Shown: positions 5,200 to 61,417 of the stretch, one piece after another
How the letters are laid out: every line of letters starts with the position of its first letter
How positions within the stretch are numbered: position 1 is the first letter of the stretch
Source of the DNA: Geobacteraceae bacterium
GTDB lineage: Bacteria > Desulfobacterota > Desulfuromonadia > Desulfuromonadales > BM103
Length of the DNA stretch: 64,000 bases
Assembly: GCA_024641085.1 (NCBI GenBank)
Contig: JAHEDT010000011.1
Coordinates: 1 to 64,000 of the forward strand
Direction: 5' to 3'
Made by a program: the position numbers and the translations under genes
Notes under the pieces: generated by a model
What the model was told of the DNA's origin: nothing
The model's input: only the letters and a program-made list of their open reading frames with translations
Database searches by the model: none

Positions 5200-5308
5200 C
5201 GTGAAGCCTCCTCTGGGTATTTCCGGCGCTTGACCTGCTGCATGGACGCCAGGTGGGCTCAGCGGTGCCTGGTACCATGATACGGATTTTTAACCAATAC
5301 TTTGTTTA

Positions 5309-5323
5309 GCAAGCGGCGTGCCA
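5309..5323 (-). promoter_or_regulatory. Sigma-54 (-24/-12) promoter of the icmF operon
   Basis: Read on the minus strand the site is TGGCACGCCGCTTGC, an exact match to TGGCAC-N5-TTGC. Transcription would start about 12 nt downstream, near 5297, leaving a leader of about 100 nt before icmF. RpoN dependence implies an enhancer-binding activator, which is not encoded nearby. Confidence 0.82.
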
Positions 5324-5594
5324 TGCAGACTGGGCCTGCCGAACTGTGGCAAATGACCTCACCACGGCACTTCCCCACTTGCAGGGCGTTTGCTGTGAGT
5401 ATGATGGTGACGTTGAGCCTGGCCTGTTGTCTACGCTTGTTTACATATCACCAGGGACATTCTCGACGACCGGACAAGGACTAAGAGAACTGTGCGTCGT
5501 TGAATGACCGTAGGTACCGGAAGCACAGACATCCCTCGTAAAACAGCCTGGCAACCGATCCTGTTAAGGGCCACCCGCTCCCTGATGGCCGGGA
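5324..5594. other. Intergenic region upstream of icmF, downstream of moeA
   Basis: About 270 nt with no convincing ORF. It must hold any enhancer site for the sigma-54 promoter, but I could not define a clear palindrome. A short stem GGCCA...TGGCC lies about 20 nt after the moeA stop but lacks a T-run, so it is not a clear terminator. Confidence 0.5.
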
Positions 5595-9281: not shown

Positions 9282-9395
9282 GCGCCGCAGGCTCCAGTGA
9301 AACCGGTGTTCTTATTAACAGGAATTTATCCTATAAGGGGCAGCTTCGCAATATTCTTTTCGGTTTTCCGGGCAGGGATGGCCAGTGCACTTCCC

Positions 9396-10190: not shown

Positions 10191-10197
10191 AGCTGCA

Positions 10198-12522
10198 TTA
10201 CCCCCCTGAAACGTAGGATACCAGGAAGACCTCGCTGCCGTCAGGGATGCCGATCTGATCCTCTCCGGCAAGAATCATCTTGCCGTTGACAACGATGTTG
10301 AGATTCGGATCGTCGAGGATCCGGGAGGCTTCAGGGAACTTGCGGCGCAGCAGTTGCCTCAGTTCTCCCAGGTGCGCGACCTGTTGGTCGACGATGACGG
10401 CCCCTTCCGGTGCCCCGGGAAACACTCCGGGGAATTGGACCTTGATGCTGTATCCGGTGACGATTTGCGAGAGTCTGGCGTGCCAGTCGATCGTGGGGAC
10501 ACCTTCTCGATTGAGACCGGTCAGCCGGTAGAAGCGCTGCTTGAGAGCGGCAAACTGCTCACGGTCGATCTTTTCCCCCTTGAAGGGGCCGACCTTGATC
10601 GGTTCGTCGAACCAGCGGAGGGGCAGGGTGTCGTCGTCACCGCGCAGGCCGAGTCGGAAGTTGAGCATCCGCTCCAGCCCGGTGATGCTGCGGCCGACCT
10701 CGTCGAGCTGCCGCTCGTCGAAGGGCAACCCGGTCAGCCCGCTGACTTGGGCGGAGAAATCGGCCAGGTCGGGAGTCGACGGCGAGTTGAACAGCTTGGT
10801 GTTGAAACGGCACATACCGATGGCGTCCCCGGCGGCAAAGGTGTTCTCGCAGCGCCGCACGGCGTGCTCCTTCCCCTCGTAGGAGGTCGGTTCCGGAGAG
10901 ACCTCCCCGCCGTAGAGGGCCGTCTTGAAATCGGCGTCATCATTGATCCGGGCATTGATCTCCAGGGTGGCCCGGTTGCGCAGGTGGTCCATGCCACGGG
11001 TGGCGACTGCCAGGCCCAGCGCAAAGGCCTTGAGGATGCGGGCGTCATGTGGGTCCGACTGGAACAGTCCCTTGGAGGCCATGCAGTAGCTCAGGGCCTC
11101 CAGCGGGTACTTGCCCAGTTCGACGGCGCGACTGGAAGCGGCGATGGTGTCGCCGAAGCCTTCGCGCTTCGCGGTCATGAACAGGAGTTTCTCGATGACC
11201 GGGTAGTTCCCCCAGCTCAGCTCGAGTCCATCGGTAACCTCCCGGTCAATAATGCCGCGCTGGTAAAGTTCCATGGCCCAGGCAATGGCGCTGCCGGTGC
11301 TCGAGGCGTCGAGGGCCAGGTCGTTGAGGATGTTGTTTAGGCGCAGCACCTGTTCGGGTTCCTTGATGCCGATGTCAGGGCCGAACTTGCCGACGATGAT
11401 GTATTCCGGACCCTCCCCCTTGTCGTAGCGGTCGAAACGGCCGTCGTTGTTGATGCCGTTGTAGGTGCGCCGCTTGTGGTGTTCGAGGGCGCTCTGCTCC
11501 CTGTCATAGCTGGCATTGCCGGTCAGGCCGGCCAGGGCACTGGACCCCCAGCCGCCCTTGCCGCCCGGGAGCATGTCGTTGTTGGCGCGGCAGCAGACCG
11601 GGCACTTGTAGCAGCCGCTCATTCCCGGCCGATAAGGGTCGAAATTGTCGGCATCGAGGCTGTCGTGCCAGGTGGTCTCCTGGTGATTCCTGGCCCCCAT
11701 GGCGCCGAGGACCCGGCTCGGCTTGTAGAGGAATGGGGTGCCGACTTTTTTCAGGGCATTCTGGACCACGCTCGCCGCGAGGATCTTCTTGCCGATTTCC
11801 CGGTTGTGTTCTTTAAACGTGGCGGTCGGCTCGGCCTGCCCTGGCTTGCCCTGGATGAGGATCGCCTTGAGGTGCAGGGCGCCCATTTTGGCGCCGCCGC
11901 CGCCGCGGGCCCAAATCGATTTCTCTCCTGCCATGATGCCGCTGCAGAGGACCCGGTTCTCACCGGCGCTGCTGATGCGCGCCATGGCCATGTCCTTGCG
12001 CTCACGGCAGGAAAAGTCGCGTTCGACGGCCGCGGTCAAGGCAATGTTGTCCATGCCGCGATAAGGACTCGCATCGACAAAGCTGATCTCCTCCTGACAG
12101 ATCCTCAGCAATGTCCATTCCGGGCTGCGGCCGTAAAGAACCAGGTGGTCGTAACCGTGGAGTTTGAGATAGGCGGGGAAATAGTCGCCGGCATTGCTGT
12201 CGAGGATTGCTCGGCTTTCTGGAGAGCGGCTGGTGACGTTGCCGCGGGTGGCTCCAGGCATGTGCCCGGTCAGCATGCCGGCGCCGAAGATCAGAGGCAC
12301 CCGGGGGTCAAGTGCGTCCTGCTCCTCATCCATCAGGTTGTAGAGCAGGTACATATTGCCGCCGCGACCGGCCAGGAAGTGCCGGACCGCCTCCAGCGAC
12401 AGGAACCCCTTCCGGCTGCTGCGTTGCTCGAGGTCGACGAATAGCACCGCTCCCTGACTGGGGTACTGGGGGGCTGAATGCATGCGGCCCAAAAGCCGTT
12501 CAACCTTTTGTCTGATATCCAT
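10198..12522 (-). CDS. Tungsten aldehyde:ferredoxin oxidoreductase with C-terminal MoaD/ThiS-like domain
   Basis: 774 aa, longer than the usual 600-660 of this family. Residues 1-210 form the pterin-binding N-domain (WARGGGGAKMGAL near 205). The [4Fe-4S] ligands are C304, C307, C311 (CxxCxxxC) and C571 (GMCRF), as in archaeal AOR. The extra 80 residues (about 692-774) look like a MoaD/ThiS beta-grasp domain ending in G773-G774 exactly at the C-terminus, as needed for adenylylation and thiocarboxylation. Predicted role: ferredoxin-linked oxidation of aldehydes or reduction of acids, with tungstopterin. The neighbouring tungstate importer supports this. It lies 45 nt after the stress-protein gene. 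Confidence 0.9.
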   Translation of the reverse strand: MDIRQKVERLLGRMHSAPQYPSQGAVLFVDLEQRSSRKGFLSLEAVRHFLAGRGGNMYLLYNLMDEEQDALDPRVPLIFGAGMLTGHMPGATRGNVTSRSPESRAILDSNAGDYFPAYLKLHGYDHLVLYGRSPEWTLLRICQEEISFVDASPYRGMDNIALTAAVERDFSCRERKDMAMARISSAGENRVLCSGIMAGEKSIWARGGGGAKMGALHLKAILIQGKPGQAEPTATFKEHNREIGKKILAASVVQNALKKVGTPFLYKPSRVLGAMGARNHQETTWHDSLDADNFDPYRPGMSGCYKCPVCCRANNDMLPGGKGGWGSSALAGLTGNASYDREQSALEHHKRRTYNGINNDGRFDRYDKGEGPEYIIVGKFGPDIGIKEPEQVLRLNNILNDLALDASSTGSAIAWAMELYQRGIIDREVTDGLELSWGNYPVIEKLLFMTAKREGFGDTIAASSRAVELGKYPLEALSYCMASKGLFQSDPHDARILKAFALGLAVATRGMDHLRNRATLEINARINDDADFKTALYGGEVSPEPTSYEGKEHAVRRCENTFAAGDAIGMCRFNTKLFNSPSTPDLADFSAQVSGLTGLPFDERQLDEVGRSITGLERMLNFRLGLRGDDDTLPLRWFDEPIKVGPFKGEKIDREQFAALKQRFYRLTGLNREGVPTIDWHARLSQIVTGYSIKVQFPGVFPGAPEGAVIVDQQVAHLGELRQLLRRKFPEASRILDDPNLNIVVNGKMILAGEDQIGIPDGSEVFLVSYVSGG

Positions 12523-21755: not shown

Positions 21756-23099
21756 CTATTTGGGCCGACGGTCTTCAATACGCTTGGCCTTGCCTTCACT
21801 GCGCGCAATGCTGTTGGGTGGTACCAGCTGGATGTCGACGCTGATGCCGATTACGTCCTTGATGTCCTGCTGAAGATTGCGTTTTTTGCTGCGGACCGCC
21901 GCCACGTCCTCGAGGATGTCGAATTCGTCACCCTTGAGAATGTCGGCAGCGGCCTTGACCATGAATTCCTCGGTCACTTCGACTTTGACCCGCAATGAAT
22001 CCATGGCGCCTTTGCGTTCGACGATGACCATGTAGTGCGGCGAGACTCCTTCGCGTTTGAGAATAATCGATTCTATCTGTGAAGGGAAGACGTTGACTCC
22101 GCGGATGATCAGCATGTCGTCGCTGCGCCCTGAAACCCGCTCCATCACGACCGTGGTCCGGCCGCAAACACAGGTGCCGTAAGTGAGCCGCGTGATGTCC
22201 CGGGTCCGGAAGCGCAGTAGGGGCTGCCCCTGGTTGGCGACCGTGGTGAAAACCAGTTCGCCAACTTCCCCTTCGGCAAGCACTTCGCAGCTGTGCGGGT
22301 CGATAATTTCCGGGTAGAAATAGTCTTCGTTGATGTGCAGCCCATGCTGCTTCTCAACGCATTCGAAGGCAACGCCTGGACCGATGATCTCAGAGAGGCC
22401 GTAGATGTCGCAGGCCTTGATGCCGAACTTGTCCTGGATCTTGTGGCGCATCGCTTCGCTCCAGGGCTCTGCGCCGAGCACTCCGACGCGGAGCTTGAGC
22501 TTGTGGAAGTCAATTCCCATCTCCTCGCCGGCCTCGTGGAGGTGCATCAGGAAGGAGGGCGTGGAGGTCAGCACGGAGCTGCCGAAGTCCTCCATCAGCA
22601 TCAGCTGCCGCTGGGTGTTCCCGCCCGAAATCGGAATGACCGCGGCACCGACCCGGATCGCCCCGTAGTGGATTCCGATTCCGCCGGTGAAGAGGCCGTA
22701 GCCGTAGATATTCTGCACCACGTCGTGCTTGGTGACGCCGGCACCGGTGAGCGCTCTTGCCATCACTTCCTTCCAGGTTTCCAGGTCCTGTCGCGTGTAG
22801 CCGACCACGACCGGCTTGCCGGTGGTCCCGGAGGTTGCGTGATACTCGACGATCTCCTCCTGGGGCGCACTGAACAGCCGGAAAGGATAGTTGTCGCGAA
22901 TGTCCTGCTTGGTGGTGAAAGGGAGCCTGCGAATGTCGTCCAGGGACCGGATCTCCCGGGGGCTTACTTTCAGCTCGTCGAGCTTGTTCCGGTAGTAGGG
23001 GTTCTTCTCGTATAGGTAGTTGACTGTTGCCTGCAGCCGGCCAAGCTGAAGGGCCTGCATCTCACTGCGGCTGTTTGTCTCTTCCTTGTTCCAGACCAT
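21756..23099 (-). CDS. paaK: Phenylacetate-CoA ligase
   Basis: 447 aa, the usual PaaK length. The adenylate-forming motifs are present: HATSGTTGKPVVVGYT (about 88-103), YGLSEIIGPG, and a C-terminal hinge and domain with RSDDMLIIRGVNVFP. It activates phenylacetate or another aryl acetate with ATP and CoA. Placement next to iorAB is common in anaerobes that use aromatic amino acids. It ends 78 nt before iorA in the same orientation. Confidence 0.92.
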   Translation of the reverse strand: MVWNKEETNSRSEMQALQLGRLQATVNYLYEKNPYYRNKLDELKVSPREIRSLDDIRRLPFTTKQDIRDNYPFRLFSAPQEEIVEYHATSGTTGKPVVVGYTRQDLETWKEVMARALTGAGVTKHDVVQNIYGYGLFTGGIGIHYGAIRVGAAVIPISGGNTQRQLMLMEDFGSSVLTSTPSFLMHLHEAGEEMGIDFHKLKLRVGVLGAEPWSEAMRHKIQDKFGIKACDIYGLSEIIGPGVAFECVEKQHGLHINEDYFYPEIIDPHSCEVLAEGEVGELVFTTVANQGQPLLRFRTRDITRLTYGTCVCGRTTVVMERVSGRSDDMLIIRGVNVFPSQIESIILKREGVSPHYMVIVERKGAMDSLRVKVEVTEEFMVKAAADILKGDEFDILEDVAAVRSKKRNLQQDIKDVIGISVDIQLVPPNSIARSEGKAKRIEDRRPK

Positions 23100-23190
23100 A
23101 TTGTCACCTCACTCCCTAGTCATCTCACCTTGATTGAAAAACATCTGGGTTGCATTGCATGTCTCGTATTGAGGCTTGCCCGCCTGCGTC

Positions 23191-24537
23191 TCAGAGATAG
23201 TGGAGTTCCCTGGCCTTTTCCGTGATCTCGTCACGAAACTGCGGATGGGCGATCTTGATCAGCGCCTGGGTCCGCTGGCGGACGGTTCTGCCGTAGAGCG
23301 CCGCTACGCCGAACTCGGTGACCACGAAGTGAACGTGGTTGCGGCTGGTGACCACTCCAGCGCCCGGTTTGAGCATCGGCACGATCTTGCTGATCACGGT
23401 GCCGTCGCGCAGTTGGGAGGTGCTGGGCAGAGCGATGATCGGCACGCCGCCTTTCGAGCGTGAGGCGCCGTAGATGAAGTCCAGCTGGCCGCCTACGGCC
23501 GAATGCATCTTCGGCCCGATGCTGTCCGCACAGACCTGGCCGGTCAGATCGATTTCGATCGCCGAGTTGATCGCCACCATGTGTTCGTTCTGCGCCACTA
23601 TGAAGGGGTCATTAACATATTCGGTGCGGCGCAGTTCGACCAGCGGGTTGTTGTTTACCCATTCATAGAGGCGCCTGGTGCCGAGCAGGAAGCCGCAGAT
23701 GATCTTGCCGGGATGCAGGGTTTTACGGGAACCGTTGACCACGCCTGCCTCGACCAGATCGATCACACCATCGGAAATCAGCTCGGAATGAACGCCGAGG
23801 TCCCGCTTGTCAAACAGGAACTTGAGCACAGCGTTGGGCAGGGCCCCGATACCCAGCTGCATGGTCGCCCCGTCGGGGATCAGCTGGGCAATATGGGCGG
23901 CGATTTGCTCGACCACCACCTGGTCAACATCGTCCCCCATCGGCATTTCAAAGAGGGGGGTGTCGCTTGGCACGATGTAATGGATTTTGTCGATGTGTAT
24001 GGCTGTGTCACCCAACGTTCGCGGCATCTGCTCGTTGATCTGGGCAATCACCACTCTGGCGACCTCTGCGGCGGAGATGGTGAGGCCTGATTCCGCGCCC
24101 ATGGAGCAGAAGCCGTTTGCGTCCGGCGGCGAGATGTGGATCAGCGCCACATCCAGGGGGAGATGGCCGTTTTTGAAGAGCAGGGGGAATTCGGAGAGCA
24201 TCACCGGGGTGAAATCGGCTCGCCCCTCGTTGACGGCCCGGCGCACGTTGGCGCTGATGAACATTGAGTTGATGCGCAGATGCCCTGTCATTTCGGGGGC
24301 GACATAATCCGCCGGGCAGATGGTCAGCGGGTGGCAGATTTCCACATTCTGCAGTTGCGGAGCCCGCCTGACCAGGGCATCGAGCAGCGGCAAAGGCACC
24401 GAGGCATTGCCGGTCAGAAAGACCCGGTCTCCAGACTTGATGACCTTGACGGCTTCATCCGGAGTCGTGATCCGTGACTGACAGGTCGCCTGCCAATTGG
24501 TTTGGGCTTCCTGTCTTCCTAAAAGCATCGTTTCCAC
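23191..24537 (-). CDS. Acetyl-CoA hydrolase/transferase-family CoA-transferase
   Basis: 448 aa; 4-hydroxybutyrate/acetate CoA-transferase family with two similar halves. The conserved GIGALPNAVL and LGVHSELISDG segments are present; the Glu of the latter is the likely covalent catalyst. It swaps CoA between acyl-CoA and a free acid, for example acetyl-CoA plus aryl acid. The start is a GTG with GGAGG at 7 nt; the ATG three codons later is too far from that site. It begins 4 nt after the acyl-CoA synthetase stop. Confidence 0.9.
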   Translation of the reverse strand: METMLLGRQEAQTNWQATCQSRITTPDEAVKVIKSGDRVFLTGNASVPLPLLDALVRRAPQLQNVEICHPLTICPADYVAPEMTGHLRINSMFISANVRRAVNEGRADFTPVMLSEFPLLFKNGHLPLDVALIHISPPDANGFCSMGAESGLTISAAEVARVVIAQINEQMPRTLGDTAIHIDKIHYIVPSDTPLFEMPMGDDVDQVVVEQIAAHIAQLIPDGATMQLGIGALPNAVLKFLFDKRDLGVHSELISDGVIDLVEAGVVNGSRKTLHPGKIICGFLLGTRRLYEWVNNNPLVELRRTEYVNDPFIVAQNEHMVAINSAIEIDLTGQVCADSIGPKMHSAVGGQLDFIYGASRSKGGVPIIALPSTSQLRDGTVISKIVPMLKPGAGVVTSRNHVHFVVTEFGVAALYGRTVRQRTQALIKIAHPQFRDEITEKARELHYL

Positions 24538-24540
24538 GTC

Positions 24541-26640
24541 TCAGCCTCCAGTTTGAATGCGGATCCTGCCATCGACGGCGAAGGCCCTGTCAGCAAAAGC
24601 CATAATGGGATTGAGATCCATCTCCTCGATCATCGGCAGATCGCCGAGCAGTTGCGAGACCCGCTGAATCAGTTCGATGACCGCCTGCCTGTTGATCCCC
24701 GTTTCACCGCGGACGCCGTCGAGCAGCGCCGAAGTTTTAATCGCGGCGAGCATCTCCGCGGCTTCAACGCCGGTCACCGGGGCCACCTTGAAGGCCACGT
24801 CCTTGAGGGTCTCGACATAAATCCCGCCAAGGCCGAACATCACCAGGTGTCCGAGGTTGCGCTCGGCAGTGGCGCCGATAATCAGTTCGCGCCCGCCGGG
24901 GAGAAATTTCTGTACCAGGAAGCCGAGCTCGCCGAAGTGGCCGAGTCGGCGCTGCATCTCTTCGACTGTGCTGAGGACTGTGGCGGCATCCTTGAGATTG
25001 ACGGCCACCCCGCCCATGTCGCTTTTGTGATCGATCTTGCTGCTGTCAACCTTGACTACCACCGGGTAGCCGATCGCGGCGGCGGCGGCGACCGCCTGGT
25101 CGGCATTCTGCACCACTTGCCAGGGAGCGACCGAGATGCCGTAGGCTTCGAATATCCCGTAAACTTCGCAAGCGGACAGGACCGTGCGGCCCGCTTGTCG
25201 GGCCTGCTCGATGATCGCCCGGGCACGTGCAGCGTCAGTGCCATCGAAAACCTGCGGCTGGCCGATATCCCGCCGCTGAATCCGGCCGTATTGCACCAGG
25301 GCACCCAGTGCCCGGGCTGCGTCGCCTGGATTCGCATAGAAGGGCACTTCGCCTTCCTTGAGGATCGCCATGGTCTTCTGGAAGCGTTCCAGCTTGAGGT
25401 TGGTCATGAAGTTGCAGACCAGCGGCTTGCGCTTCTGGAGGTTGACCTCGACGATCTCGCGGGCGACCGCATCGGTGTCGGTAAAGGGCGCGGTGACGAA
25501 GTTGATATAGACGCAGTCGATCTGATCGGAATCCATCATGACATCAAGAGCGGCACGGAACTGGGGGCCGCCGGCGGTGGCGACCACGTCGATGGGATTT
25601 TCCAAAGCCGCTTCGGGGAACTGGGTTTCGTGCAACCGGTCAATCGATGCCGCCGAGAGTTTCGGCACCTCGAGGTCGAAGCCGACCAGTACGTCGGTCG
25701 CGATCACCGCTGGACCGCCGGTGTTGGTAATGATGCCGACCCGATTGCCGGCCGGGATCGGCTGGCTGGAGAAAGCCATGGCCGCCCTCACCATTTCGCC
25801 TTCGTCGCGGAAGGGGAGAACGCCGATTTTCTCGAAAATAAGTTCGGTGGCGATGTCGACCCCGGCCAGCGAGCCGGTGTGCGAGGACGCCGCCTTGGCG
25901 CCCTCTTCGGTGCGGCCGGCCTTCATGGCCAGGACCGGCTTCCTCGCCGCCACCTTGCGGGTGACCTCCAGAAATTCGCGCGGTTTGTCGAAGCCCTCGG
26001 TGTAGAGGATGATCGCCTTGGTCCCCTCATCCTCGCCGTAATAGTGGATGATCTCCGGGATCGACACGTCGCAGGCGTTGCCGTTGGAGGCATAGAGGCG
26101 CTGGCCGATATCGAGGTCGTCGAGTGCCTGCATGATCAGTGCGCCGACGCCGCCGCTCAAGGCCACCACCGAAATGCTGCCCGGCTTGGGGAAGGTGAAG
26201 GTGAAGTTGCAGTAGGCGTTCAGCTCCGGGTCGGAATTGATGATCCCCTGGCAGTTGGGGCCGAACAGGCGGATGCCGTATTTGCGTGCGTTGGCGAGGA
26301 ATTCCGCCTGGAGCCTGGCACCCTCCTCGCCCATCTCGCTGAAGCCGGCCGAGTTGATGATGACCGCCTTGACCCCTTTCTGGCCGCATTCCTCGATGGC
26401 CTGGGGAACGAACTGGCTGGGGATGATGATGTGCGCCAGGTCGACCTCGCCCGGGATGTCCGCCAGTGAGGGGTAGGATTTGAGTCCGCATACTTCATCG
26501 GCCCTGGCGTTGACCGGGTAGATAGCACCTTTGTAGCCATATCTCTGGAGGTTCCTGATGATGACGTTGCCAATGGAAAGTTCCTTGGTGGATGCGCCGA
26601 CCAGGGCAACCGCTTTGGGCTTGAACAGGGCGTCTAGCAT
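24541..26640 (-). CDS. Acyl-CoA synthetase, ADP-forming, fused alpha-beta subunits
   Basis: 699 aa. Domains in order: CoA-binding (VALVGAS...), ligase-CoA with the phosphohistidine H254 in SSHTGSLAG, then an ATP-grasp domain (about 480-699). It converts acyl-CoA + ADP + Pi to acid + ATP, conserving energy from acyl-CoA made by IorAB or similar, or runs in reverse for activation. The start at 26640 has GGAGAG about 8 nt upstream; the longer reading to 26700 overlaps the dehydratase gene and is rejected. It starts 1 nt after that gene ends. Confidence 0.93.
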   Translation of the reverse strand: MLDALFKPKAVALVGASTKELSIGNVIIRNLQRYGYKGAIYPVNARADEVCGLKSYPSLADIPGEVDLAHIIIPSQFVPQAIEECGQKGVKAVIINSAGFSEMGEEGARLQAEFLANARKYGIRLFGPNCQGIINSDPELNAYCNFTFTFPKPGSISVVALSGGVGALIMQALDDLDIGQRLYASNGNACDVSIPEIIHYYGEDEGTKAIILYTEGFDKPREFLEVTRKVAARKPVLAMKAGRTEEGAKAASSHTGSLAGVDIATELIFEKIGVLPFRDEGEMVRAAMAFSSQPIPAGNRVGIITNTGGPAVIATDVLVGFDLEVPKLSAASIDRLHETQFPEAALENPIDVVATAGGPQFRAALDVMMDSDQIDCVYINFVTAPFTDTDAVAREIVEVNLQKRKPLVCNFMTNLKLERFQKTMAILKEGEVPFYANPGDAARALGALVQYGRIQRRDIGQPQVFDGTDAARARAIIEQARQAGRTVLSACEVYGIFEAYGISVAPWQVVQNADQAVAAAAAIGYPVVVKVDSSKIDHKSDMGGVAVNLKDAATVLSTVEEMQRRLGHFGELGFLVQKFLPGGRELIIGATAERNLGHLVMFGLGGIYVETLKDVAFKVAPVTGVEAAEMLAAIKTSALLDGVRGETGINRQAVIELIQRVSQLLGDLPMIEEMDLNPIMAFADRAFAVDGRIRIQTGG

Positions 26641-26641
26641 C

Positions 26642-27889
26642 TTAGCTTCTCTCCTCGAGTTGTTCGATAAAGGCTTCGACATTGGTCCGGGTCTGTTCAT
26701 CGGACACGCAGCGCAGGTCGTTGAGGTCGCCGGAAATGACCAGGCTCGGGATGCCGGTTGCCTGCTCCAGGCGCTGCGGCATGCCGTAGCGGCTGTTGGA
26801 ATTGCAGGGGCAGGTTTTGGCGTCGTGGTAGATGATGCCGTCTATATGGAACTTTTTCAGCATCTGCTTGATGTACTCTTCCTTGTAGGCATCTGAGCGG
26901 ACGATGAACAGGGCGAGATAGGCCTTGGCCATGCTGCGCAGCGGGTCGTTGGCGTCGAAATCGGGGAAGATCCAGCTGCTGCAATAGGTGGAGACCAGCA
27001 CGCTGGTCTGCAGTTCCGAGAACAGCTCGGAATGCTGGCGCAGCCGGCCCCAAACCGGCATCCCTTCCCAGTAGATACGATGCTTTTCACCCTCGACGGC
27101 TGCCACCTGTCCGGTGATGCGCTGCTCGAGTTCGGCGAGCAGAACCCGGTAGTAGTCGACTGCCTGCGGGGTGCCGCGCAGGACTACGGCCGGGCCCATA
27201 TGGATGGTGCCGTCGAAAAAAGTTAACGGCGCCGGGGTTGCCGCAGCGGTTTCGAGGACCTGGCGCCAGAGCTCGGTGCATTCCCGGGATAGGGCCACGG
27301 TTTCCCGCAGGCGCTGCATATCCAGCTTCTCCCCGGCAACCTCCTCGAGAGTGGGGATCAGCGCTTCGAGCTGCCGGGTGACGTCGTCGACCAGGATCTC
27401 GGTAACATCGGTGAAGTTCTTCGGCGAGGTGATGCCGATGCAGGGGACGCCAAATTCTCTTGCATACCAGTTGAACCAGTCCTGCACATCGCGGCACTGG
27501 TTGGTGTTGTAGACCAGCACGTCAGGGCGGGGCGGGGCTTCGATCCCTGAGTAAGCCTTGGCCAGCGGCGAAACCCCTTTCAGGTAGGCGCCGATGTCAG
27601 CGGTCAGGTACGAGCAGATATCCGGAGAGTACCCGATGGCGTTGGCCTCGGGGATCAGTTCGGTGGCCATGCGCGTGGCTCCCAGCATGGCGGCGTGGTT
27701 CTCCGGGAAATGTACGGCAAAGCCCATCGCCCTGAGTAACTCCGCCGGCCCGACACTGGTGCACCAGGCGACCTTGCGGGTCGCCGATTGCCCGGCGTCG
27801 TTGAGATCGTAGAAGTAGTCGGACATGATTTTCATCATCTGCCCGGTGGCCTGGATCTTTTTCCGTTGGGGTTGCTTGTCTTCAGCCAT
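26642..27889 (-). CDS. 2-Hydroxyacyl-CoA dehydratase D-component-family Fe-S protein (HgdB/BcrB/YjiM-like)
   Basis: 415 aa from the ATG at 27889 (GGGAGA upstream); a longer open frame to 28465 runs through the activase gene out of frame and is rejected. It belongs to the HgdB/BcrB/FldC fold: AWCTS (C43), SPDICSY (C92), and a C-terminal segment with H355, C360, C362 and the IPSLVISGDLNDLR pattern. Nine cysteines in all. Such proteins carry [4Fe-4S] or double-cubane clusters reduced by an ATP-driven activase, encoded just upstream. Only one subunit is present, unlike heterodimeric dehydratases or BcrBC. The substrate is unknown. Confidence 0.85.
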   Translation of the reverse strand: MAEDKQPQRKKIQATGQMMKIMSDYFYDLNDAGQSATRKVAWCTSVGPAELLRAMGFAVHFPENHAAMLGATRMATELIPEANAIGYSPDICSYLTADIGAYLKGVSPLAKAYSGIEAPPRPDVLVYNTNQCRDVQDWFNWYAREFGVPCIGITSPKNFTDVTEILVDDVTRQLEALIPTLEEVAGEKLDMQRLRETVALSRECTELWRQVLETAAATPAPLTFFDGTIHMGPAVVLRGTPQAVDYYRVLLAELEQRITGQVAAVEGEKHRIYWEGMPVWGRLRQHSELFSELQTSVLVSTYCSSWIFPDFDANDPLRSMAKAYLALFIVRSDAYKEEYIKQMLKKFHIDGIIYHDAKTCPCNSNSRYGMPQRLEQATGIPSLVISGDLNDLRCVSDEQTRTNVEAFIEQLEERS

Positions 27890-38881: not shown

Positions 38882-40474
38882 ATGAAAGACCATACCGTCG
38901 TAGTCGATAGGACCACAGAGCCTTCAACGTTACATTACGCACCGGTTTTCAATGTCGCGGGCCCCTTTATCGACCGCCATTGTGCTGAAGGACGTGCCGA
39001 CAAAACGGCGATCCGAACCAGCCAGGGAGCCAAGATCAGTTACCGCCAGTTGGCGGACAACGTAAACCGCTGCGGGAATGTATTGCTGGAACTCGGTCTC
39101 GAACGGGGAGATCGCGTCCTCCTGATCGTCAAGGACTGTGCCGAGTTTTTTTATGGCTTCTGGGGGGCGATCAAGGCCGGTCTGATCCCGGTGCCGGTCA
39201 ATACCCTGCTGCGTGCCAAAGACTACGCCTACATCCTTGCCGATTCCGGCTGCAGTGCGCTGATCTACTCGCCGGAATACACCCTTGAGGTGCAAGCGGC
39301 CCTGTCGCAGCTTGAGTCATCTCAACCCCTTGGAATTTGTGTCGAGGGAGGCGAGAGCAGCCTGCAGGAGTTGCTGTTCCAGGCGTCTGCCGAGCTTGAG
39401 CCGGTGGCGACAACTGCCGAAGACGACTGCTTCTGGCTCTACTCCTCAGGTTCGACCGGCAGCCCCAAGGGGGCGGTGCACCGCCACCGGGACATGGTTG
39501 TCTCGAGTCAATTCTACGGGGTCGAAGTTCTCGGCATTCGCGAGGACGACATCTGCTTTTCTGCGGCCAAGCTCTTTTTCGCCTATGGGCTTGGCAACGG
39601 CATGACCTTCCCGCTCTGGGTCGGTGCAAGCACCGTACTGTACGATGCCCGCCCGGGCCCGCAATCGACCTTCGAAACCATCGAGCAGTTTAAGCCGACG
39701 CTGTTCTACGGTGTGCCGACACTTTATGCCGCCCAGTTGCAGGCGCTCAAGGCCCAGCATCCTGAGCTGTCCTCCTTGAGACTTTGCATCTCGGCCGGTG
39801 AGGCCCTGCCGGCTGATATCTTCAACCGTTGGCGGGAAGCGACTGGACTGGTCATTCTCGATGGCATTGGCTCCACCGAAGCCCTGCATATTTTCATCTC
39901 CAACCGCGTAGACGATATCTTGCCCGGTTCCAGCGGGCGGGTAGTCCCCGGCTACCAGCTGCGGATCAGCGATGAGGACGGCCAGGACGTGCCGGTCGGG
40001 GGATCCGGAAGACTGTGGATTCGAGGCGATTCAACCGCTCGCTGCTATTGGAACAACCCGGAAAAGAGCGCCCAGACCATGGTGGCGGGCTGGCTGGACA
40101 CCGGCGACACCTATTTTCAGGATTCCGCCGGCTATTATCACTATTGCGGCCGCAACGACGATATGATCAAGGTCGGCGGCATCTGGTGCTCACCGTTCGA
40201 GATCGAAGCCAAGCTGATCGAGCATGTCGCAGTGCTTGAAGCGGCGGTGGTCGGCCGGCCCGACGGGGACGGGCTGGTCAAGCCCGAGGCGTATGTCATT
40301 CTGAAGGACCATGAAGAAGCCACGGCCGGCATTGCCGAGGAACTGCGCTTACATTGCAAGGAAGGGCTGGCTCCCTACAAGTTTCCGCGCCAGTTTCACT
40401 TCGTGTCCGAACTGCCGAAGACCGCGACCGGCAAGATCCAGCGTTACAAGCTGCGCAGCCAACCACAACCGTAA
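38882..40474 (+). CDS. Benzoate-CoA ligase-family acyl-CoA synthetase
   Basis: 530 aa from the ATG with GGAGG at 7 nt. ANL-superfamily motifs: YSSGSTGSPKG (AMP loop), the KLFFAYGLGNGMTFPL segment that marks benzoate-CoA ligases, and a C-terminal PKTATGK with the catalytic Lys at about 518. It makes benzoyl-CoA (or a close analogue) from the acid, ATP and CoA in the cytoplasm. P-x4-G-K is the motif at which acyl-CoA synthetases are acetylated and switched off. A HDAC-like deacetylase gene converges on it from 27 nt away. Confidence 0.92.
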   Translation: MKDHTVVVDRTTEPSTLHYAPVFNVAGPFIDRHCAEGRADKTAIRTSQGAKISYRQLADNVNRCGNVLLELGLERGDRVLLIVKDCAEFFYGFWGAIKAGLIPVPVNTLLRAKDYAYILADSGCSALIYSPEYTLEVQAALSQLESSQPLGICVEGGESSLQELLFQASAELEPVATTAEDDCFWLYSSGSTGSPKGAVHRHRDMVVSSQFYGVEVLGIREDDICFSAAKLFFAYGLGNGMTFPLWVGASTVLYDARPGPQSTFETIEQFKPTLFYGVPTLYAAQLQALKAQHPELSSLRLCISAGEALPADIFNRWREATGLVILDGIGSTEALHIFISNRVDDILPGSSGRVVPGYQLRISDEDGQDVPVGGSGRLWIRGDSTARCYWNNPEKSAQTMVAGWLDTGDTYFQDSAGYYHYCGRNDDMIKVGGIWCSPFEIEAKLIEHVAVLEAAVVGRPDGDGLVKPEAYVILKDHEEATAGIAEELRLHCKEGLAPYKFPRQFHFVSELPKTATGKIQRYKLRSQPQP

Positions 40475-40501
40475 TGGCTTCCGGCGATTGTCGGGGGCTG
40501 A

Positions 40502-41494
40502 TTAGACGCCCGCGGCGTACGCCAAAGCCAGATCCTCGATGATCGCCGGCAGCAGGCGCTCGAGTACGGTCATCGAATAACCCCCTTCCAGGAACAGCCC
40601 GATTCTCCCCCGGCAATACTCCCGGGCCACGGCATGCAGCTGACTTACGGCCGACCGGAAATGATGGTCCTCGACGTGCATGACGCCGAAGGGGTCGTCC
40701 TGGTGGGCGTCAAACCCCGCGTTCACCAGCAGGTAGTCCGGGCGGAGCTTGTTCTCGAAGCTGTGCAAATGACTCTCGAACTGCTGCAGCCACTGGTTGC
40801 CGGAACTGTCCAGGGGGAGGGTGATGTTGCACGTGCAACCCGTGCCGGCCCCCCGTCCGGTCTCCTGCCTGTGGCCGGTATTGGGGTAAATGTGTTCTGG
40901 TTCGCCGTGCAGTGAGTAATAGAAAATCCCCGGATCGTCATAATAGAGGAAGTTGAGGCCGTGCCCGTGATGAACGTCGAAGTCGACCACCAGGAACGCT
41001 GCTTCCGGCTGTTTGCAGCGAATGGTTTCGATGACCAGGGCGGTGTGGTTGACAAAACAGAACCCTTCGGCTCTCTTCCTTCCGGCGTGGTGCCCTGGCG
41101 GGCGCACCAGCGCGAAGCCGGCCCCCCCTCCAAGCAGGGTCGTTGCCAGGCTCAGGGCGCAGCCACCAGCGGCCAGCACCGCACGAAAGGTCTGCGGGCA
41201 GATGTGGTTGTCGTAGGACATGAAGTAGGGGTGTGCGTGCTGGCAGGCGCTCCTGAGCCGCTCGAGGTAGTCGATGTCGTGGACCCGCTCCAACTCGGCA
41301 ATCCGCGCTGGCGGCGGGGTTTGCCAGGAGATCGGCAGCGTCGGGGCCAGCCGGGCACAGCCGCGCAGGACGCTTTGCAGCCGACCGGGGGTCTCCGGGT
41401 GGTCAACTCCGACTTCGTGGAGCAGGCAATCCGGATGGGAATAGACCTGGAAGAGCTCTTCCCGGTAAGGGAAGCGCCCGGCAAGCTCCTTCAT
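40502..41494 (-). CDS. Histone deacetylase-family protein (AcuC/LdaA-like lysine deacetylase)
   Basis: 330 aa, arginase/deacetylase fold. H135-H136 (PPGHHAG) and zinc ligands D173, H175 (DFDVHHG) and D262 (GFDAHQDD) are intact; EGGYS near 309 supplies the catalytic Tyr. Bacterial members deacetylate acyl-CoA synthetases (LdaA on benzoate-CoA ligase in Rhodopseudomonas; AcuC on acetyl-CoA synthetase) or acetylpolyamines. Its position opposite a benzoate-CoA ligase supports the former. Overlaps the CoA-transferase/GNAT gene by 4 nt. Confidence 0.88.
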   Translation of the reverse strand: MKELAGRFPYREELFQVYSHPDCLLHEVGVDHPETPGRLQSVLRGCARLAPTLPISWQTPPPARIAELERVHDIDYLERLRSACQHAHPYFMSYDNHICPQTFRAVLAAGGCALSLATTLLGGGAGFALVRPPGHHAGRKRAEGFCFVNHTALVIETIRCKQPEAAFLVVDFDVHHGHGLNFLYYDDPGIFYYSLHGEPEHIYPNTGHRQETGRGAGTGCTCNITLPLDSSGNQWLQQFESHLHSFENKLRPDYLLVNAGFDAHQDDPFGVMHVEDHHFRSAVSQLHAVAREYCRGRIGLFLEGGYSMTVLERLLPAIIEDLALAYAAGV

Positions 41495-43320
41495 GAGCCC
41501 TCCAGGGAGAGGATGTAATCGAGCTCCATAGGGTCTTCAGCCTGCTCGCTGCTGAAGTGGAATTTTTCGAACACCCGGCGCATCGGGTGGTTGTCCTTAC
41601 GTACGTTGGCGACCAGGGTCTTCACCCCGCGCTGGCGGGCGATGTCGATCAGCTTGTTCAGCAGCAGGCTGGCCAGTCCGCGGTCACGCTTGTCTTCATG
41701 CACGACAAAAGCGGCCTCCGCGCTCAGACCATCGTCTAAAGTGTAATAGCGGCCAACGGCCAGGATGACTTCGCGCGGGCCCTGACGTTCAACGATGCAG
41801 AGCGCCATGTCCTTGGTCAGGTCGGTGTTGACCAGACGATAGGCTCGTTCCGTACCCATTTTCTTCGGCTCGTTGCGGTATCTCTGGAAGAGAGTCACCG
41901 AATCGTGGGAATAGAAAAAACTCTGCAGGCGCAGCTGGTCGGAGGGGTGGAGCGGGCGCAGGAAATATTCCTCATCCTGAAGGTTCAGACGCAAGACCTC
42001 GGTTTCTCCCAGTTCCTTCACCGGCGCCGGCGTGCTGCGCTGGTAAGCGGGGACCCTGCCCGACTGCAGCATGTCTTCGAGCAGCTGTTCACGGAATTGC
42101 GGGTGGGCGACCTGGATCAGCTCCATGACCCGTTCACGGATGCTGCGCCCCCGCAGGGTCGCGATCCCGTATTCCGTGACCACGTAGTGAACGTCGCCAC
42201 TTGTGGCGACCACCCCGGATCCACGGCTGATATCCGAGACGATGCGTGACACCGTGCCCTCCTTGGCCGTGGATGGCAGGGCGATGATGGGCCGCCCCCC
42301 CCGGCTCATACCGGCACCGCGGATGAAATCGACCTGGCCACCGATGCCGCTGTAGAATTGCCCTTCGATCGAATCGGAGACAATCTGCCCGGTCAGATCG
42401 ACCTGGGTGGCGCTGGTAATCGAGATCATCTTGTGGTTGCGGGCAATCACCGCCGGGTTGTTGACGTATTCCGACCCGTGGAACTCGATGTGCGGGTTGT
42501 TGTCGATAAACTCGTAGAGCTCGTGGCTGCCGCAGCAGAAAGAAGTGATCGTCTTGCCTTCGTGCAGCCCTTTCAGGCGGTTGGTGATGTTGCCGTTGCG
42601 GTAAAGCTGCAGCAGTCCGTCGCCGAACATCTCGGTGTGCACCCCCAGGTCGTTGTGACCTTTCAGCTGGTGGAGCGCCGCTTGGGGGACTCGTCCGATA
42701 CCGACCTGAAGGGTACAGCCATCCTCGATCAGCAGCGAGACATACTTGCCGATTTGCAGGGCAGTGTCGTCCAGGGCGACCGGGGGAGGCACGGGGAGCG
42801 GTTCGGAGACCCTGATGCAGGCCGCGATCTCGTCCTTGTGCAGATAGCACTGGCCGAAGGTGCGGGGCATCTGGTCGTTGACCTGGGCCAGGATGTACTT
42901 GGCCGACTTGGCGGCCGCCATGACGATGTCGACCGAGACGCCCAGGGAACAGTACCCCTGGGCATCGGGCGGGGTCACCTGGACGAAGGCGATGTCGACG
43001 GGGAGGATGTCGTCCTTGAGCAGGCCGGGGATTTCCGACAGGGAGCAGGGGGTGTAATCAGCCCGGCCCGTGCGGACGGCCTCGCGGGTGCCCTCGTCAA
43101 GAAAGAAGGTGTTGACATGCAGGTTGTGCTCATACGCAGGATCGCTCCACGGGGCATGGCCCATGCTGAGCATGTTGATGAACTCCAGGTCGCTGAAGTG
43201 CCTGACGGATTTCAGGAACAGATCGATCAGCGCATGGGGACAGGCCGCGCCCGTACCGAGAAAAATGCGATAGCCGTTCTTGATGAACTTGTTCCAGGTG
43301 CTGGCGGTGAGCTCTTCCAT
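41491..43320 (-). CDS. Acetyl-CoA hydrolase/transferase fused to a GNAT acetyltransferase domain
   Basis: 609 aa from the ATG at 43320; a frame open to 43482 overlaps the transglutaminase gene and is rejected. Residues 1 to about 430 are a CoA-transferase of the acetate/4-hydroxybutyrate type (VGIGRVPQAAL; LGVHTEMFGDG with the likely catalytic Glu). About 445-609 is a GNAT fold (VHEDKRDRGLASLLLNKL acetyl-CoA loop). This fusion occurs in several anaerobic delta-proteobacteria. The GNAT part could acetylate a lysine on a partner enzyme; the deacetylase encoded just downstream would reverse it. Confidence 0.9.
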   Translation of the reverse strand: MEELTASTWNKFIKNGYRIFLGTGAACPHALIDLFLKSVRHFSDLEFINMLSMGHAPWSDPAYEHNLHVNTFFLDEGTREAVRTGRADYTPCSLSEIPGLLKDDILPVDIAFVQVTPPDAQGYCSLGVSVDIVMAAAKSAKYILAQVNDQMPRTFGQCYLHKDEIAACIRVSEPLPVPPPVALDDTALQIGKYVSLLIEDGCTLQVGIGRVPQAALHQLKGHNDLGVHTEMFGDGLLQLYRNGNITNRLKGLHEGKTITSFCCGSHELYEFIDNNPHIEFHGSEYVNNPAVIARNHKMISITSATQVDLTGQIVSDSIEGQFYSGIGGQVDFIRGAGMSRGGRPIIALPSTAKEGTVSRIVSDISRGSGVVATSGDVHYVVTEYGIATLRGRSIRERVMELIQVAHPQFREQLLEDMLQSGRVPAYQRSTPAPVKELGETEVLRLNLQDEEYFLRPLHPSDQLRLQSFFYSHDSVTLFQRYRNEPKKMGTERAYRLVNTDLTKDMALCIVERQGPREVILAVGRYYTLDDGLSAEAAFVVHEDKRDRGLASLLLNKLIDIARQRGVKTLVANVRKDNHPMRRVFEKFHFSSEQAEDPMELDYILSLEGS

Positions 43321-43378: not shown

Positions 43379-44032
43379 CTAAACGATTTCCGCGTCGGCC
43401 GCAAAGTCTCCGGTACAACGGTTTCCAAGTAGCTTCGGGCTGTGTTTGCGCCAGGTGGCGAGAATCCGGTCGAGCGGCACATCGGCGAAACAGCCGCGCA
43501 TTTTCAGGTACTCCATATGACGGCGCTGGTCGACATCGTAAGGGTGAAAGATAGAATCCTCCCGACCGTTGAATTCGAGGGGCTTGACCCGGAAGCGGCT
43601 GCAGAGTTCCAGGTTGAAGGCGGGGGTTGACTTAACCCAGCAGCCTTCCAGGTAGAACTCGGTGAAGGCGTGCCAGCGCATGATATCGCCATTGTTGATC
43701 GCCCTCAGACGCGGGCTGTTCAGGTGGTTCTGCACGTCACCGAACCCGATCCGTGCCGGGATGCCCACGGCGCGCCCGCAGGCGGCCAGCAGGGACGCCT
43801 TTGAAATGCAGAAGCCGAAGCCGTTGCGCAGCACACTGCTGGCACGGTACATCTCCGGATCGGCGTAATCGAGGTAGGGAGTGTAGCGAATGCCGTCACG
43901 GACCCGGTAGTAGAGGTCTACGGCCTGCTCCACGCTCGAAGCCCCGGCTGCCAGCGACGCACGGGAGAAGTCCCGGATCGAGGGATGGTCGCTGTCTATA
44001 AATTGCGCGGCTTCAAGAAAGCGCTGGTCCAT
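43379..44032 (-). CDS. Transglutaminase-like domain protein
   Basis: 217 aa. The papain-like core shows C75 (GFCISKAS) and H121 (RWHAFTEFYL). The third residue, usually Asp, falls at STPAFN and may be N140. No signal peptide or membrane segment, so cytosolic. Such proteins can be proteases or amide-forming enzymes; the substrate is unknown. Co-oriented with the CoA-transferase/GNAT and deacetylase genes (58 nt gap), and so part of that cassette. Confidence 0.8.
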   Translation of the reverse strand: MDQRFLEAAQFIDSDHPSIRDFSRASLAAGASSVEQAVDLYYRVRDGIRYTPYLDYADPEMYRASSVLRNGFGFCISKASLLAACGRAVGIPARIGFGDVQNHLNSPRLRAINNGDIMRWHAFTEFYLEGCWVKSTPAFNLELCSRFRVKPLEFNGREDSIFHPYDVDQRRHMEYLKMRGCFADVPLDRILATWRKHSPKLLGNRCTGDFAADAEIV

Positions 44033-44237: not shown

Positions 44238-45911
44238 TCACCCCGAGTTTTTTCTTTGCTCTTCGTCCCGGATTGAACGGCGCAGCAGTTTGCCGACCTT
44301 CGACTTGGGAAGCATATCGCGAAATTCGATATATTGGGGAACCTTGTAGGAAACCAGGCGCTCCCGGCACCAGGCCCGGAGATCGCTACCCGAGACACCC
44401 TTCGCGTCATGCTTCAAAACGACAATCGCCTTGATGCGTTCTCCCACTTTGGGGTCCGCGATACCGACGGCGCAGGCGTCGATGACAGTGGGGTGGTCCT
44501 GGAGGACGGCCTCGATCTCGGAGGCGCTGATACGGTAGCCCTTGTGCTTTATGACGTCCACTGTCCGCTCCATGAAGCGGATCTGCCCTGTGTCATCCTC
44601 GGCGACGAAATCTCCCATCCGGTAGTAGATTTCGCCATCCACGTCCACAAATGAGAGTGCTGTTTCGCCCGGTTTGTTCCAGTAACTCTTGATGTTGAAG
44701 TCGGATGTTATCCAGAGCTCGCCCACCCCGCCTTTGGCCACCGGCTCGAAGGTTGCCAGATCGGTGATGCGGTAACGGTAGGAGGGGAGGATGTGCCCTA
44801 TGACTTCGGCGCTGGGCTCGACCGAGGGGCGTGTGTATGCGACATGACCCACTTCTGTCGAGCCATAGACCTGGTAGATCGGTGAGCCGGTAATATCTCT
44901 CCAGCGGTTGAAAATCTCCGAGGGGAGGACATCACCGCCGCAATAGCAGTATTTGAATGATGTGAGGTCGTACTGATCGATTCTGTCGTTGTCGAGAATC
45001 ATTCGATAGAGTGCGGGAACCCCGAGCATCCATCTGACCTTGTGGCGCTCCACATCCCTCATGAGGGTGTCGGTTTGCGGGATTGGCATGAGGACCGTTT
45101 TGCAGCCGCTGTTCAGCCCCACGGCAATGAACATCCCCTTGGCCATGATGTGGTAGAGCGGATTGACGAGCAGGAAGGCGTCGTCGCCAACGCGAAGGTT
45201 GCCATCCAGGACCTCGCTCATGATGTCATTGATGTAGGAGACCTCGGTGGCGTGATTGCCCGGCACCCCTTTGGGGAAGCCGGTGGTCCCGCCCGTATAC
45301 ATGATGTAGGCAAGGTCTGTCCAGGGGTCAATCTCTGGTTGAGGATGGATCTCCGGCGCGTTTTTCAGGAGCTTCATGAAATCGTGGATGTGAAGAGCGG
45401 CCGGTACCTTCCCCGTGGGAATCTTGTCAAGCAGGTGGCCGAGCCAGATTTTCCATTTGGGGAGCATGTCGGCGATATTGGTGACGATGATCTGCTTGAG
45501 ATCGGTCTGATGGAAGACTTCTTCCATATAGCCGAAGTTGGTGTCCTGGCAGATCGCCGCCTTGACTTCGGCGTCGTTAACCAGGTAATTCAACTCGTGG
45601 GCCGTGTAGATCGGAGAGACGGGGACCACGACGCCGCCGATTTTTTGTATGGCAAAGTTGGCAATCACCCATTGCGGGCAATTGGAGAGGTAGAGCATGA
45701 CCCGGTCGCCGTAGCCGATCCCGATCGAGGCAAGGGCGGCTGAGAAACGGTTGATGTCACGCGCCAGGGAGGCGTAGGTTATTTCCAGGCCAAGGTAGAC
45801 GAGGGCCACATTGTCCGGGTAGGTCTCGGCAATTTCAAAGAAGCGGGTAAAGGTCAGTTGAGTTTTGACGGGGTCTCTCTTCAGCCCTTCAGTGACAAAT
45901 TTATCGTTCAT
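44238..45911 (-). CDS. Acyl-CoA synthetase (AMP-forming), last gene of the Liv operon
   Basis: 557 aa from the ATG at 45911. ANL motifs: YTGGTTGFPKG, YGSTEVG, the RMGDF hinge region and a C-terminal PKSKVGK with the catalytic Lys at about 541. Starts 4 nt after livF, so it activates the acid imported by that transporter. Specificity is not readable: the long AELNYLV/medium-chain-like core and position suggest an aromatic or branched carboxylic acid. It also carries the P-x4-G-K acetylation motif. Confidence 0.88.
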   Translation of the reverse strand: MNDKFVTEGLKRDPVKTQLTFTRFFEIAETYPDNVALVYLGLEITYASLARDINRFSAALASIGIGYGDRVMLYLSNCPQWVIANFAIQKIGGVVVPVSPIYTAHELNYLVNDAEVKAAICQDTNFGYMEEVFHQTDLKQIIVTNIADMLPKWKIWLGHLLDKIPTGKVPAALHIHDFMKLLKNAPEIHPQPEIDPWTDLAYIMYTGGTTGFPKGVPGNHATEVSYINDIMSEVLDGNLRVGDDAFLLVNPLYHIMAKGMFIAVGLNSGCKTVLMPIPQTDTLMRDVERHKVRWMLGVPALYRMILDNDRIDQYDLTSFKYCYCGGDVLPSEIFNRWRDITGSPIYQVYGSTEVGHVAYTRPSVEPSAEVIGHILPSYRYRITDLATFEPVAKGGVGELWITSDFNIKSYWNKPGETALSFVDVDGEIYYRMGDFVAEDDTGQIRFMERTVDVIKHKGYRISASEIEAVLQDHPTVIDACAVGIADPKVGERIKAIVVLKHDAKGVSGSDLRAWCRERLVSYKVPQYIEFRDMLPKSKVGKLLRRSIRDEEQRKNSG

Positions 45912-60398: not shown

Positions 60399-60851
60399 TT
60401 AAAAATCATCGAGCGGTTTTTCGAGTTCGACATAGCGCCCGCTGCGCAGTCCCTGACTGCGGAAGAAGGACAGGGTCAGCTTGTTCTCCCGGTCGACCAT
60501 GGTCCGCACGGTCGCAACCCCGGCCTTTTTCAGGCGCCGGCACATCTCGGTCAGCATGAGCTGTCCAACCCCCATCTCCCGACTCCTGGGCGACACGCTC
60601 AAGGCGAAGACCCAGCCGCATGGCTCTGACCCGAATTCCCATGCGCGCACTTCCCCGACGATGAAGCCGATCACCTCGCCGCTCTGCTCGGCGACGAGGA
60701 AAATCCGGCCAGCTCTTGCGGCGGTCACGTAGCGGTCAAAGATGCTGTTCCAGTAAGCAGGTTTATCGGCCGGGTCGCCGACCAGATCGAGCACGATCAC
60801 GGCGTCGAAGTCGGATTGTCTGGCGTTGCGGATGGTGACCTGGTCTGTCAT
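60399..60851 (-). CDS. GNAT-family N-acetyltransferase
   Basis: 150 aa from the ATG at 60851; an upstream frame to 60971 crosses the promoter region. One GNAT domain: VFALSVSPRSREMGVGQLML holds the acetyl-CoA loop. Likely acetylates a protein N-terminus or small molecule; the substrate is unknown. Co-transcribed with the Rrf2 regulator. Confidence 0.88.
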   Translation of the reverse strand: MTDQVTIRNARQSDFDAVIVLDLVGDPADKPAYWNSIFDRYVTAARAGRIFLVAEQSGEVIGFIVGEVRAWEFGSEPCGWVFALSVSPRSREMGVGQLMLTEMCRRLKKAGVATVRTMVDRENKLTLSFFRSQGLRSGRYVELEKPLDDF

Positions 60852-61417
60852 TTCACTGTCCCTTGCTCTTTTGCTCAACTGTGCTGAATATGGAAAGCTG
60901 GTCTTGATCGCGCCTTGGAGCAGGAGAAATACATTATTGTGGTATTGTGGTACCATAAACATCACTTGCAAGACAAGCCATTTTTATGTCCTCCCATCTA
61001 CCTAGCCCTTCTCAGTTGTGCGGGGTTTGGGCGGTCAAAAGAGGTGAGGTTTTGAGCGGGGAGAGTCTCTTCTACGAAAGTTCTCCGGTGCGCGGGCGTT
61101 TCGGCATCTGGGGCACAGGGTAAGCGACTCCCGGTACCGTGGAATTATGAGTTCCCGTGGATATTTTCGGACGGGATGATACAATTGCCTACAGCCGCGC
61201 TCACCTTTTCAACGAGCAATATAGTTCAGTAGGAGCGATTCCTTATGGGTGCTTCAGGGCGGAACGTCCTGAAAGGATCTGGACTCGCTGCCTGGCCCCT
61301 GGTCTTGACGGAGACAGTTGCAGCGGCCGGGCAAAAGCATCGGCGCCTCCGGGCAGGTGCCAGGAGGTAGTTGAAGGCCGTTGGTTCAGGGCCCCGTATT
61401 CGCTCAGGGATGAAACC
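60852..61417. other. Regulatory region between the GNAT gene and mobA
   Basis: 566 nt with no supported gene. It contains a tandem TTGTGGTA TTGTGGTA (60937-60952) running into a TGGTACCA palindrome (60948-60955), 86 nt upstream of the GNAT gene and a candidate Rrf2 site. Close to mobA, CCTCC-G-GGCAGGTGCC-A-GGAGG (about 61354-61375) folds into a strong hairpin enclosed by CGGCC / GGCCG, possibly a structured leader. Confidence 0.5.

Follow-up and report, generated by a model that had tools for sequence, protein, structure and literature searches.

In a stretch of DNA from a Geobacteraceae bacterium, the gene for a benzoate-CoA ligase (BadA) faces, end to end, two genes of which one codes for a histone deacetylase (HDAC)-family protein and the other for a CoA-transferase fused to a GNAT acetyltransferase domain. 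We asked whether these two genes, hereafter the pair, write and erase an acyl mark on lysine, and whether BadA is the protein so marked. The stretch analysed, here called the window, comprises positions 1 to 64,000 of contig JAHEDT010000011.1 (C70 in our numbering) of a 3.5 Mb genome of Geobacterales type (G000). A first-pass annotation of its sequence had proposed that writer, eraser and target are physically linked at this locus, citing the acetylation of BadA in Rhodopseudomonas palustris by Pat and its reactivation by LdaA. That precedent stands, with additional enzymes: acetylation of the active-site lysine inactivates AMP-forming synthetases, among them the BadA of R. palustris, where RpPat/KatA acetylate K512 and SrtN and LdaA remove the acetyl group (PMC6640162). 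Our results indicate that the pair probably has a writer-eraser function. That BadA is its physiological substrate is suggested by analogy, and we hold this second proposition to be somewhat short of probable.

The features on which the argument turns are these:

38882-40474, plus strand: BadA, the proposed target, 530 amino acids (TIGR02262, 624.7 bits against a cut-off of 375)
40415-40435, plus strand: PKTATGK motif of BadA with catalytic Lys 518, the proposed acetylation site
40502-41494, minus strand: HDAC-family deacylase, the proposed eraser, 330 amino acids (PF00850, 245.8 bits)
41491-43320, minus strand: CoA-transferase-GNAT fusion, the proposed writer, 609 amino acids (PF02550, PF13336 and PF00583; predicted local distance difference test score, pLDDT, of the model 91.0)
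42031-43320, minus strand: CoA-transferase domain of the fusion, residues 1-430, with Glu230 in an HTEM motif (fold match to 3gk7/2oas)
41506-41994, minus strand: GNAT domain of the fusion, residues 443-605, with Glu535 and RxxGxA (Pat/PatA structures closest)
41491-41494, minus strand: 4-nucleotide ATGA overlap between the stop of the fusion and the start of the HDAC

What the annotation had read directly from the sequence proved correct throughout: the coordinates, the convergence of the HDAC gene on BadA with an intergenic gap of exactly 27 nucleotides, the overlap of the HDAC and fusion genes, the BadA call with its PKTATGK motif (the protein ends in ...LPKTATGKIQRYKL, which contains Lys 518), the zinc-complete HDAC, the joining of CoA-transferase and GNAT in one protein, and the PKSKVGK motif of a second synthetase at 44238-45911.

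By sequence, the GNAT half of the fusion is closest to Pat-type protein acetyltransferases. Its best matches in the PDB (9it0, 9isq, 4orf and 4nxy) are Pat/PatA protein acetyltransferases, 9it0 and 9isq being mycobacterial Pat and 4nxy a GNAT domain. Both hallmarks of a protein-acetyltransferase-type GNAT are present: the catalytic glutamate, Glu535, is conserved in 80 of 84 homologues of the fusion, and the acyl-CoA loop (RxxGxA) is nearly always retained. Glu535 aligns with the mycobacterial Pat glutamate that is an alanine in entry 4onu; we take this glutamate to be the same residue as E234 of MSMEG_5458, described in a review as a possible catalytic base (PMC8556138). Searching the window genome with the fused GNAT revealed no second gene resembling it. 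The predicted model of residues 1-430 has the fold of the 4-hydroxybutyrate CoA-transferases 3gk7 and 2oas (target-normalised template modelling scores of 0.93 and 0.95), and Glu230 of the HTEM motif, presumably the catalytic glutamate of the CoA-transferase family, is conserved in 78 of the 84 homologues. Type III GNATs have a small N-terminal ligand-binding domain (cAMP, NADP or ACT), and the 430-residue CoA-transferase found in that place puts the fusion outside this type.

The intact fold and Glu230 also fit a reading in which the CoA-transferase is the working enzyme, e.g. an acyl-CoA:benzoate or short-chain acid CoA-transferase, with the GNAT a minor or degenerate appendage and the HDAC an unrelated neighbor. 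A succinyl-CoA:benzoate CoA-transferase was reportedly described in Geobacter metallireducens by Oberender et al. in 2012. We consider this reading unlikely, since an appendage of this kind agrees poorly with the conservation of Glu535 and of the acyl-CoA loop, and since the association with an HDAC is repeated, with unrelated HDACs, as described below.

The HDAC-family protein resembles lysine deacylases in its residues and in its predicted structure. Every catalytic and zinc residue of a deacylase is found (H135/H136, D171/D173/H175, D262 and Y306, together with RPPGHH and EGGY) on a model of HDAC fold (pLDDT 90.7), whose nearest folds are 5ji5, 5zmp (lysine deacylase) and Klebsiella HdaH (KpHdaH). 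At the gatekeeper position the protein carries DPFG, as do its counterparts in three other genomes of the order Geobacterales (G012, G089 and G032). HDAC10 has a glutamate there (PEG) and bacterial ApaH polyamine deacetylases have a PIS motif (PMC11532494); as the protein shows neither, a polyamine-only deacetylase is disfavored. A broader alternative is that the two proteins act on small molecules, the GNAT acetylating, and the HDAC-like amidohydrolase cleaving, an aromatic amine or amide or a polyamine. BadL of R. palustris and its homologue in G. metallireducens are indeed GNATs that act on aminobenzoates (PMC6191541), and enzymes of HDAC fold include propanil and dimethoate hydrolases. Against this reading, which we judge rather improbable, stand not only the DPFG sequence but also the proximity of the fused GNAT to Pat and the occurrence of the same pair at loci where benzoate genes were not found nearby. 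Furthermore, the window already contains a separate, BadL-like stand-alone GNAT (60402-60971, minus strand), which shares about 70% identity with GNATs encoded close to BadA or to the pair in G012, G089 and G032. This gene is, by sequence, a candidate aminobenzoate acetyltransferase in the role of BadL, distinct from the fused GNAT, which is joined to a CoA-transferase and does not stand alone.

The reading of the pair as writer and eraser draws further support from the recurrence of the two genes together. Genes for the fusion are widespread in both bacteria and archaea; we surveyed them at 80 named genome loci, ranging from gammaproteobacteria to Bathyarchaeota. An HDAC gene lies immediately downstream on the same strand at 24 of them, in several phyla of both bacteria and archaea, which is far above chance because genomes contain few HDAC genes. 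In the tree of the fusion, one fully supported clade unites Geobacterales, Gammaproteobacteria, Verrucomicrobiota and one Myxococcota row, and the HDAC is present in 21 of its 22 assessable members (the locus L058, also in this clade, ends too early to be assessed). Outside this clade, Thermoplasmatota and Delongbacteria/Fibrobacterota have pairings of their own. The HDACs of the pairs do not form a single clade: the best tree constraining them together was 178 log-units worse (approximately unbiased test, p ~1e-112), a result to be read with the caution that several branches are long. With the same caution, a single ancestral HDAC partner was rejected; since the HDACs in the pairs come from more than one lineage, the partnership arose or re-formed more than once. 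When open frames within 6 kb were clustered across the 24 paired loci, no third conserved partner was found; of the meaningful additional families, AMP-forming synthetases were the most frequent, at 4 of the 24. Since no further gene is conserved around it, the pair looks like a portable writer-eraser module. The 4-nucleotide ATGA overlap is identical in the window, G012 and G089 and suggests that fusion and HDAC are translationally coupled. Because the pairing with unrelated deacetylases is repeated, the general claim can be tested in culturable gammaproteobacteria such as Alteromonas or Idiomarina, and a benzoate degrader is not needed. An apparent CoA-transferase-GNAT-HDAC triple fusion at locus L097 was discarded, its two parts lying in different frames, and PADLOC gave no match that would indicate a role in anti-phage defense. 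A benzoate-specific system was likewise rejected, as the pair is widespread without BadA nearby.

Is BadA, then, the target at this locus? The genes surrounding the pair and BadA are as follows:

from 34694, plus strand: Had, NCBIfam name of the anaerobic benzoyl-CoA pathway
from 35866, plus strand: Oah, NCBIfam name of the same pathway
from 37013, plus strand: Dch, NCBIfam name of the same pathway
from 37768, plus strand: amidohydrolase, between Dch and BadA
43379-44032, minus strand: transglutaminase-like gene (PF01841), between the fusion and the second synthetase
44238-45911, minus strand: second AMP-forming acyl-CoA synthetase (PF00501/PF13193) with PKSKVGK and Lys 541, the alternative target
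up to 50689, minus strand: branched-chain-type ABC transporter genes, past the second synthetase

BadA closes the plus-strand run Had-Oah-Dch-amidohydrolase-BadA. In a survey of 136 Geobacterales genomes, 16 encode BadA and 5 a close orthologue of the fusion, all 5 being among the 16; by our own arithmetic the hypergeometric chance of this overlap is ~1e-5, for cases that are not independent. The whole block, in which the transglutaminase-like gene, fusion and HDAC converge on BadA, amidohydrolase, Dch, Oah and Had, is found without interruption in G012 and also in G089, whose genome is a single contig and belongs to another family; in G001 both halves end at contig breaks. Through this recurrence the three-gene arrangement is more than a chance one. 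Across the complete blocks the gap between HDAC and BadA is 27 (window), 105 and 14 nucleotides. The linkage is thereby retained in four genomes of two families. In each of the four, the gene immediately preceding the fusion is the transglutaminase-like one, which the annotation had not mentioned. By contrast, the second synthetase and the liv genes adjoin the pair only in the window genome and in G001, which makes BadA the steadier companion. A few further loci also associate writers with BadA. In L066 and L072 a CoA-transferase-GNAT of a different lineage, lacking an HDAC, divergently adjoins a gene of the TIGR02262 benzoate-CoA ligase family; in G311 (L242, contig C10) a BadA-family gene is flanked on both sides by type I Pat-like genes (3211-5949 and 9335-12022), each combining acyl-CoA synthetase domains with a GNAT. 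These cases are suggestive of a link, and so few that chance matters.

Several observations weigh against BadA as the target. The four pair-adjacent BadA proteins form one clade (Shimodaira-Hasegawa-like approximate likelihood-ratio test, SH-aLRT, 100), with the BadA of G032 as sister (88), so that the linkage is a single evolutionary event; in G032 itself the pair lies elsewhere in the genome, away from BadA. The pair is absent from 11 Geobacterales genomes that encode BadA, and in the remaining BadA genomes of the order with sufficiently long flanks it is livHMGF that adjoins BadA instead. Elsewhere in the phylum, judging from the flanks of the BadA-family regions that were fetched, no HDAC lies within ~6 kb in any of 40. 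The check on its proposal that the annotation had put forward, co-occurrence of the three genes in other genomes, is borne out in G012 and G089 and, with the block split by contig ends, in G001, and is limited to this one BadA clade. In most bacteria the pair is not beside any synthetase, and since it is usually found without BadA nearby, BadA cannot be its general target. Being convergent, pair and BadA are also not co-transcribed. The P-x4-G-K motif, which the annotation had treated as a sign of the switch, has to be dropped as evidence: BadA does have the C-terminal catalytic lysine in this motif that a target requires, and yet all Geobacterales BadA proteins examined have the identical motif, whether their genome encodes the pair or lacks it, and the motif does not discriminate. 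Finally, the window genome encodes two sirtuins (contigs C117 and C26) and a second HDAC; these could do the erasing, and the HDAC beside BadA is consequently not the sole candidate. The interpretation originally proposed is partly supported: the Pat-like GNAT and the HDAC are physically linked, recur together in distant phyla and lie beside BadA in four Geobacterales. It is weakened as regards the motif, the target and the eraser.

The second HDAC, of 599 amino acids, is fused to an N-terminal GNAT and lies ~2.5 kb from a sirtuin gene (G000, contig C117; L040, 9993-11792 and 6745-7491). Many Geobacterales HDAC matches fall in open frames of ~590-620 amino acids, and GNAT-HDAC fusions may be common in the order.

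Alternatively, the pair could be a genuine writer and eraser whose main target is another protein, either a different synthetase, e.g. that at 44238-45911, or the fusion's own CoA-transferase half, the adjacency to BadA reflecting a shared benzoate catabolic block. In Gammaproteobacteria, Verrucomicrobiota and Thermoplasmatota the pair is present with no BadA close by, its linkage to BadA is that single event, and in G000 and G001 the second synthetase continues the strand run of the pair. However, G012 and G089 do not have this synthetase next to the pair, whereas BadA is retained in all four genomes with the HDAC-BadA gap held within 14-105 nucleotides. We regard a main target other than BadA as a minority possibility, though one of some weight. 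The window genome encodes five AMP-binding_C synthetases in all, two of which flank the pair.

Gene structure, domains, intact residues, the recurrence of the pair and its shared synteny with BadA are direct observations; what the two enzymes catalyze, which acyl group they handle and on which substrate they act are inferred. Our tentative proposal, to which we give a little less than even weight, is that fusion and HDAC are co-translated as a module for reversible lysine acylation of AMP-forming synthetases, with BadA as the best local target. The GNAT domain would acetylate, or otherwise acylate, the catalytic lysine of such synthetases, and the HDAC would hydrolyze the acyl-lysine and so restore the synthetase. 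The CoA-transferase half would bind acyl-CoA, either sensing it, as does the acyl-CoA synthetase domain of Pat, or acting as a transferase in its own right. The best candidate target would be Lys 518 of the adjacent BadA, with the synthetase at 44238-45911 ranking second. This reading is the most economical because the arrangement is analogous to that of Rhodopseudomonas BadA and of Bacillus acuABC/acsA. If correct, it would describe a compact writer-eraser cassette by which anaerobes living near the energetic limit control the activation of organic acids, together with a protein acyltransferase whose architecture includes a potentially active CoA-transferase. A bolder version, which we think improbable, would make the pair a cost switch: the CoA-transferase half would draw CoA from an abundant acyl-CoA and so activate benzoate or another organic acid at no cost in ATP; the GNAT half, supplied from that same pool and perhaps even by benzoyl-CoA, would silence the neighboring ligase, which consumes ATP; and the HDAC would reset the system. 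A switch of this kind would add a new type of architecture to the protein acyltransferases, one distributed across bacteria and archaea.

Two other regions of the window deserve mention. At 21756-26700 (minus strand) a single run of adjoining genes brings together three different CoA-activating enzymes: an AMP-binding_C_2 ligase, a non-fused CoA-transferase with 43% identity to its fused counterpart, and an ADP-forming-type acyl-CoA synthetase. At 1954-5199 (minus strand) a single protein joins B12-binding, MeaB and methylmalonyl-CoA mutase domains, as in IcmF-type mutases.

Database annotations describe CoA-transferase-GNAT fusions as bifunctional. A full-text search, with most subscription journals outside its coverage, returned no papers on this architecture or on its HDAC partner. 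Reversible acetylation of BadA is already known; the CoA-transferase-bearing GNAT architecture is outside the reviewed bacterial GNAT types I-V, which include no CoA-transferase type (PMC8556138). The fusion shares with Type I/II GNATs (SePat, PatZ, SlPatA) a Pat-like GNAT joined to an acyl-CoA-binding metabolic domain, but in those enzymes the partner domain has lost its catalytic histidine, whereas the CoA-transferase (PF02550, PF13336) keeps its catalytic glutamate in 78 of 84 homologues. With the 4-hydroxybutyrate/butyrate-type CoA-transferases, a family that includes Geobacter Gmet_2054 (PMC2700814), it has the fold and the HTEM glutamate in common; the fusion differs in its C-terminal GNAT. 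BadL/BadM aminobenzoate acetylation likewise associates a GNAT with anaerobic benzoate genes (PMC6191541), although BadL is a stand-alone GNAT acting on small molecules and the window has its own BadL-like gene.

The closest parallels are two characterized systems. In Bacillus subtilis, GNAT and HDAC genes adjoin acsA in the opposite direction (PMC8556138). As at our locus, acuABC encodes the two enzymes together, opposite the AMP-forming synthetase that they control; AcuA, however, has no CoA-transferase domain, and its target is acetyl-CoA synthetase, located upstream rather than converging from downstream. The BadA/HbaA/AliA system of R. palustris offers the same set of parts, a GNAT writer, the HDAC-family eraser LdaA and a benzoate-CoA ligase with P-x4-G-K as target; the locus described here, known from its genes, differs in that the putative writer and eraser genes overlap and adjoin the ligase, and in that the writer has a CoA-transferase domain.

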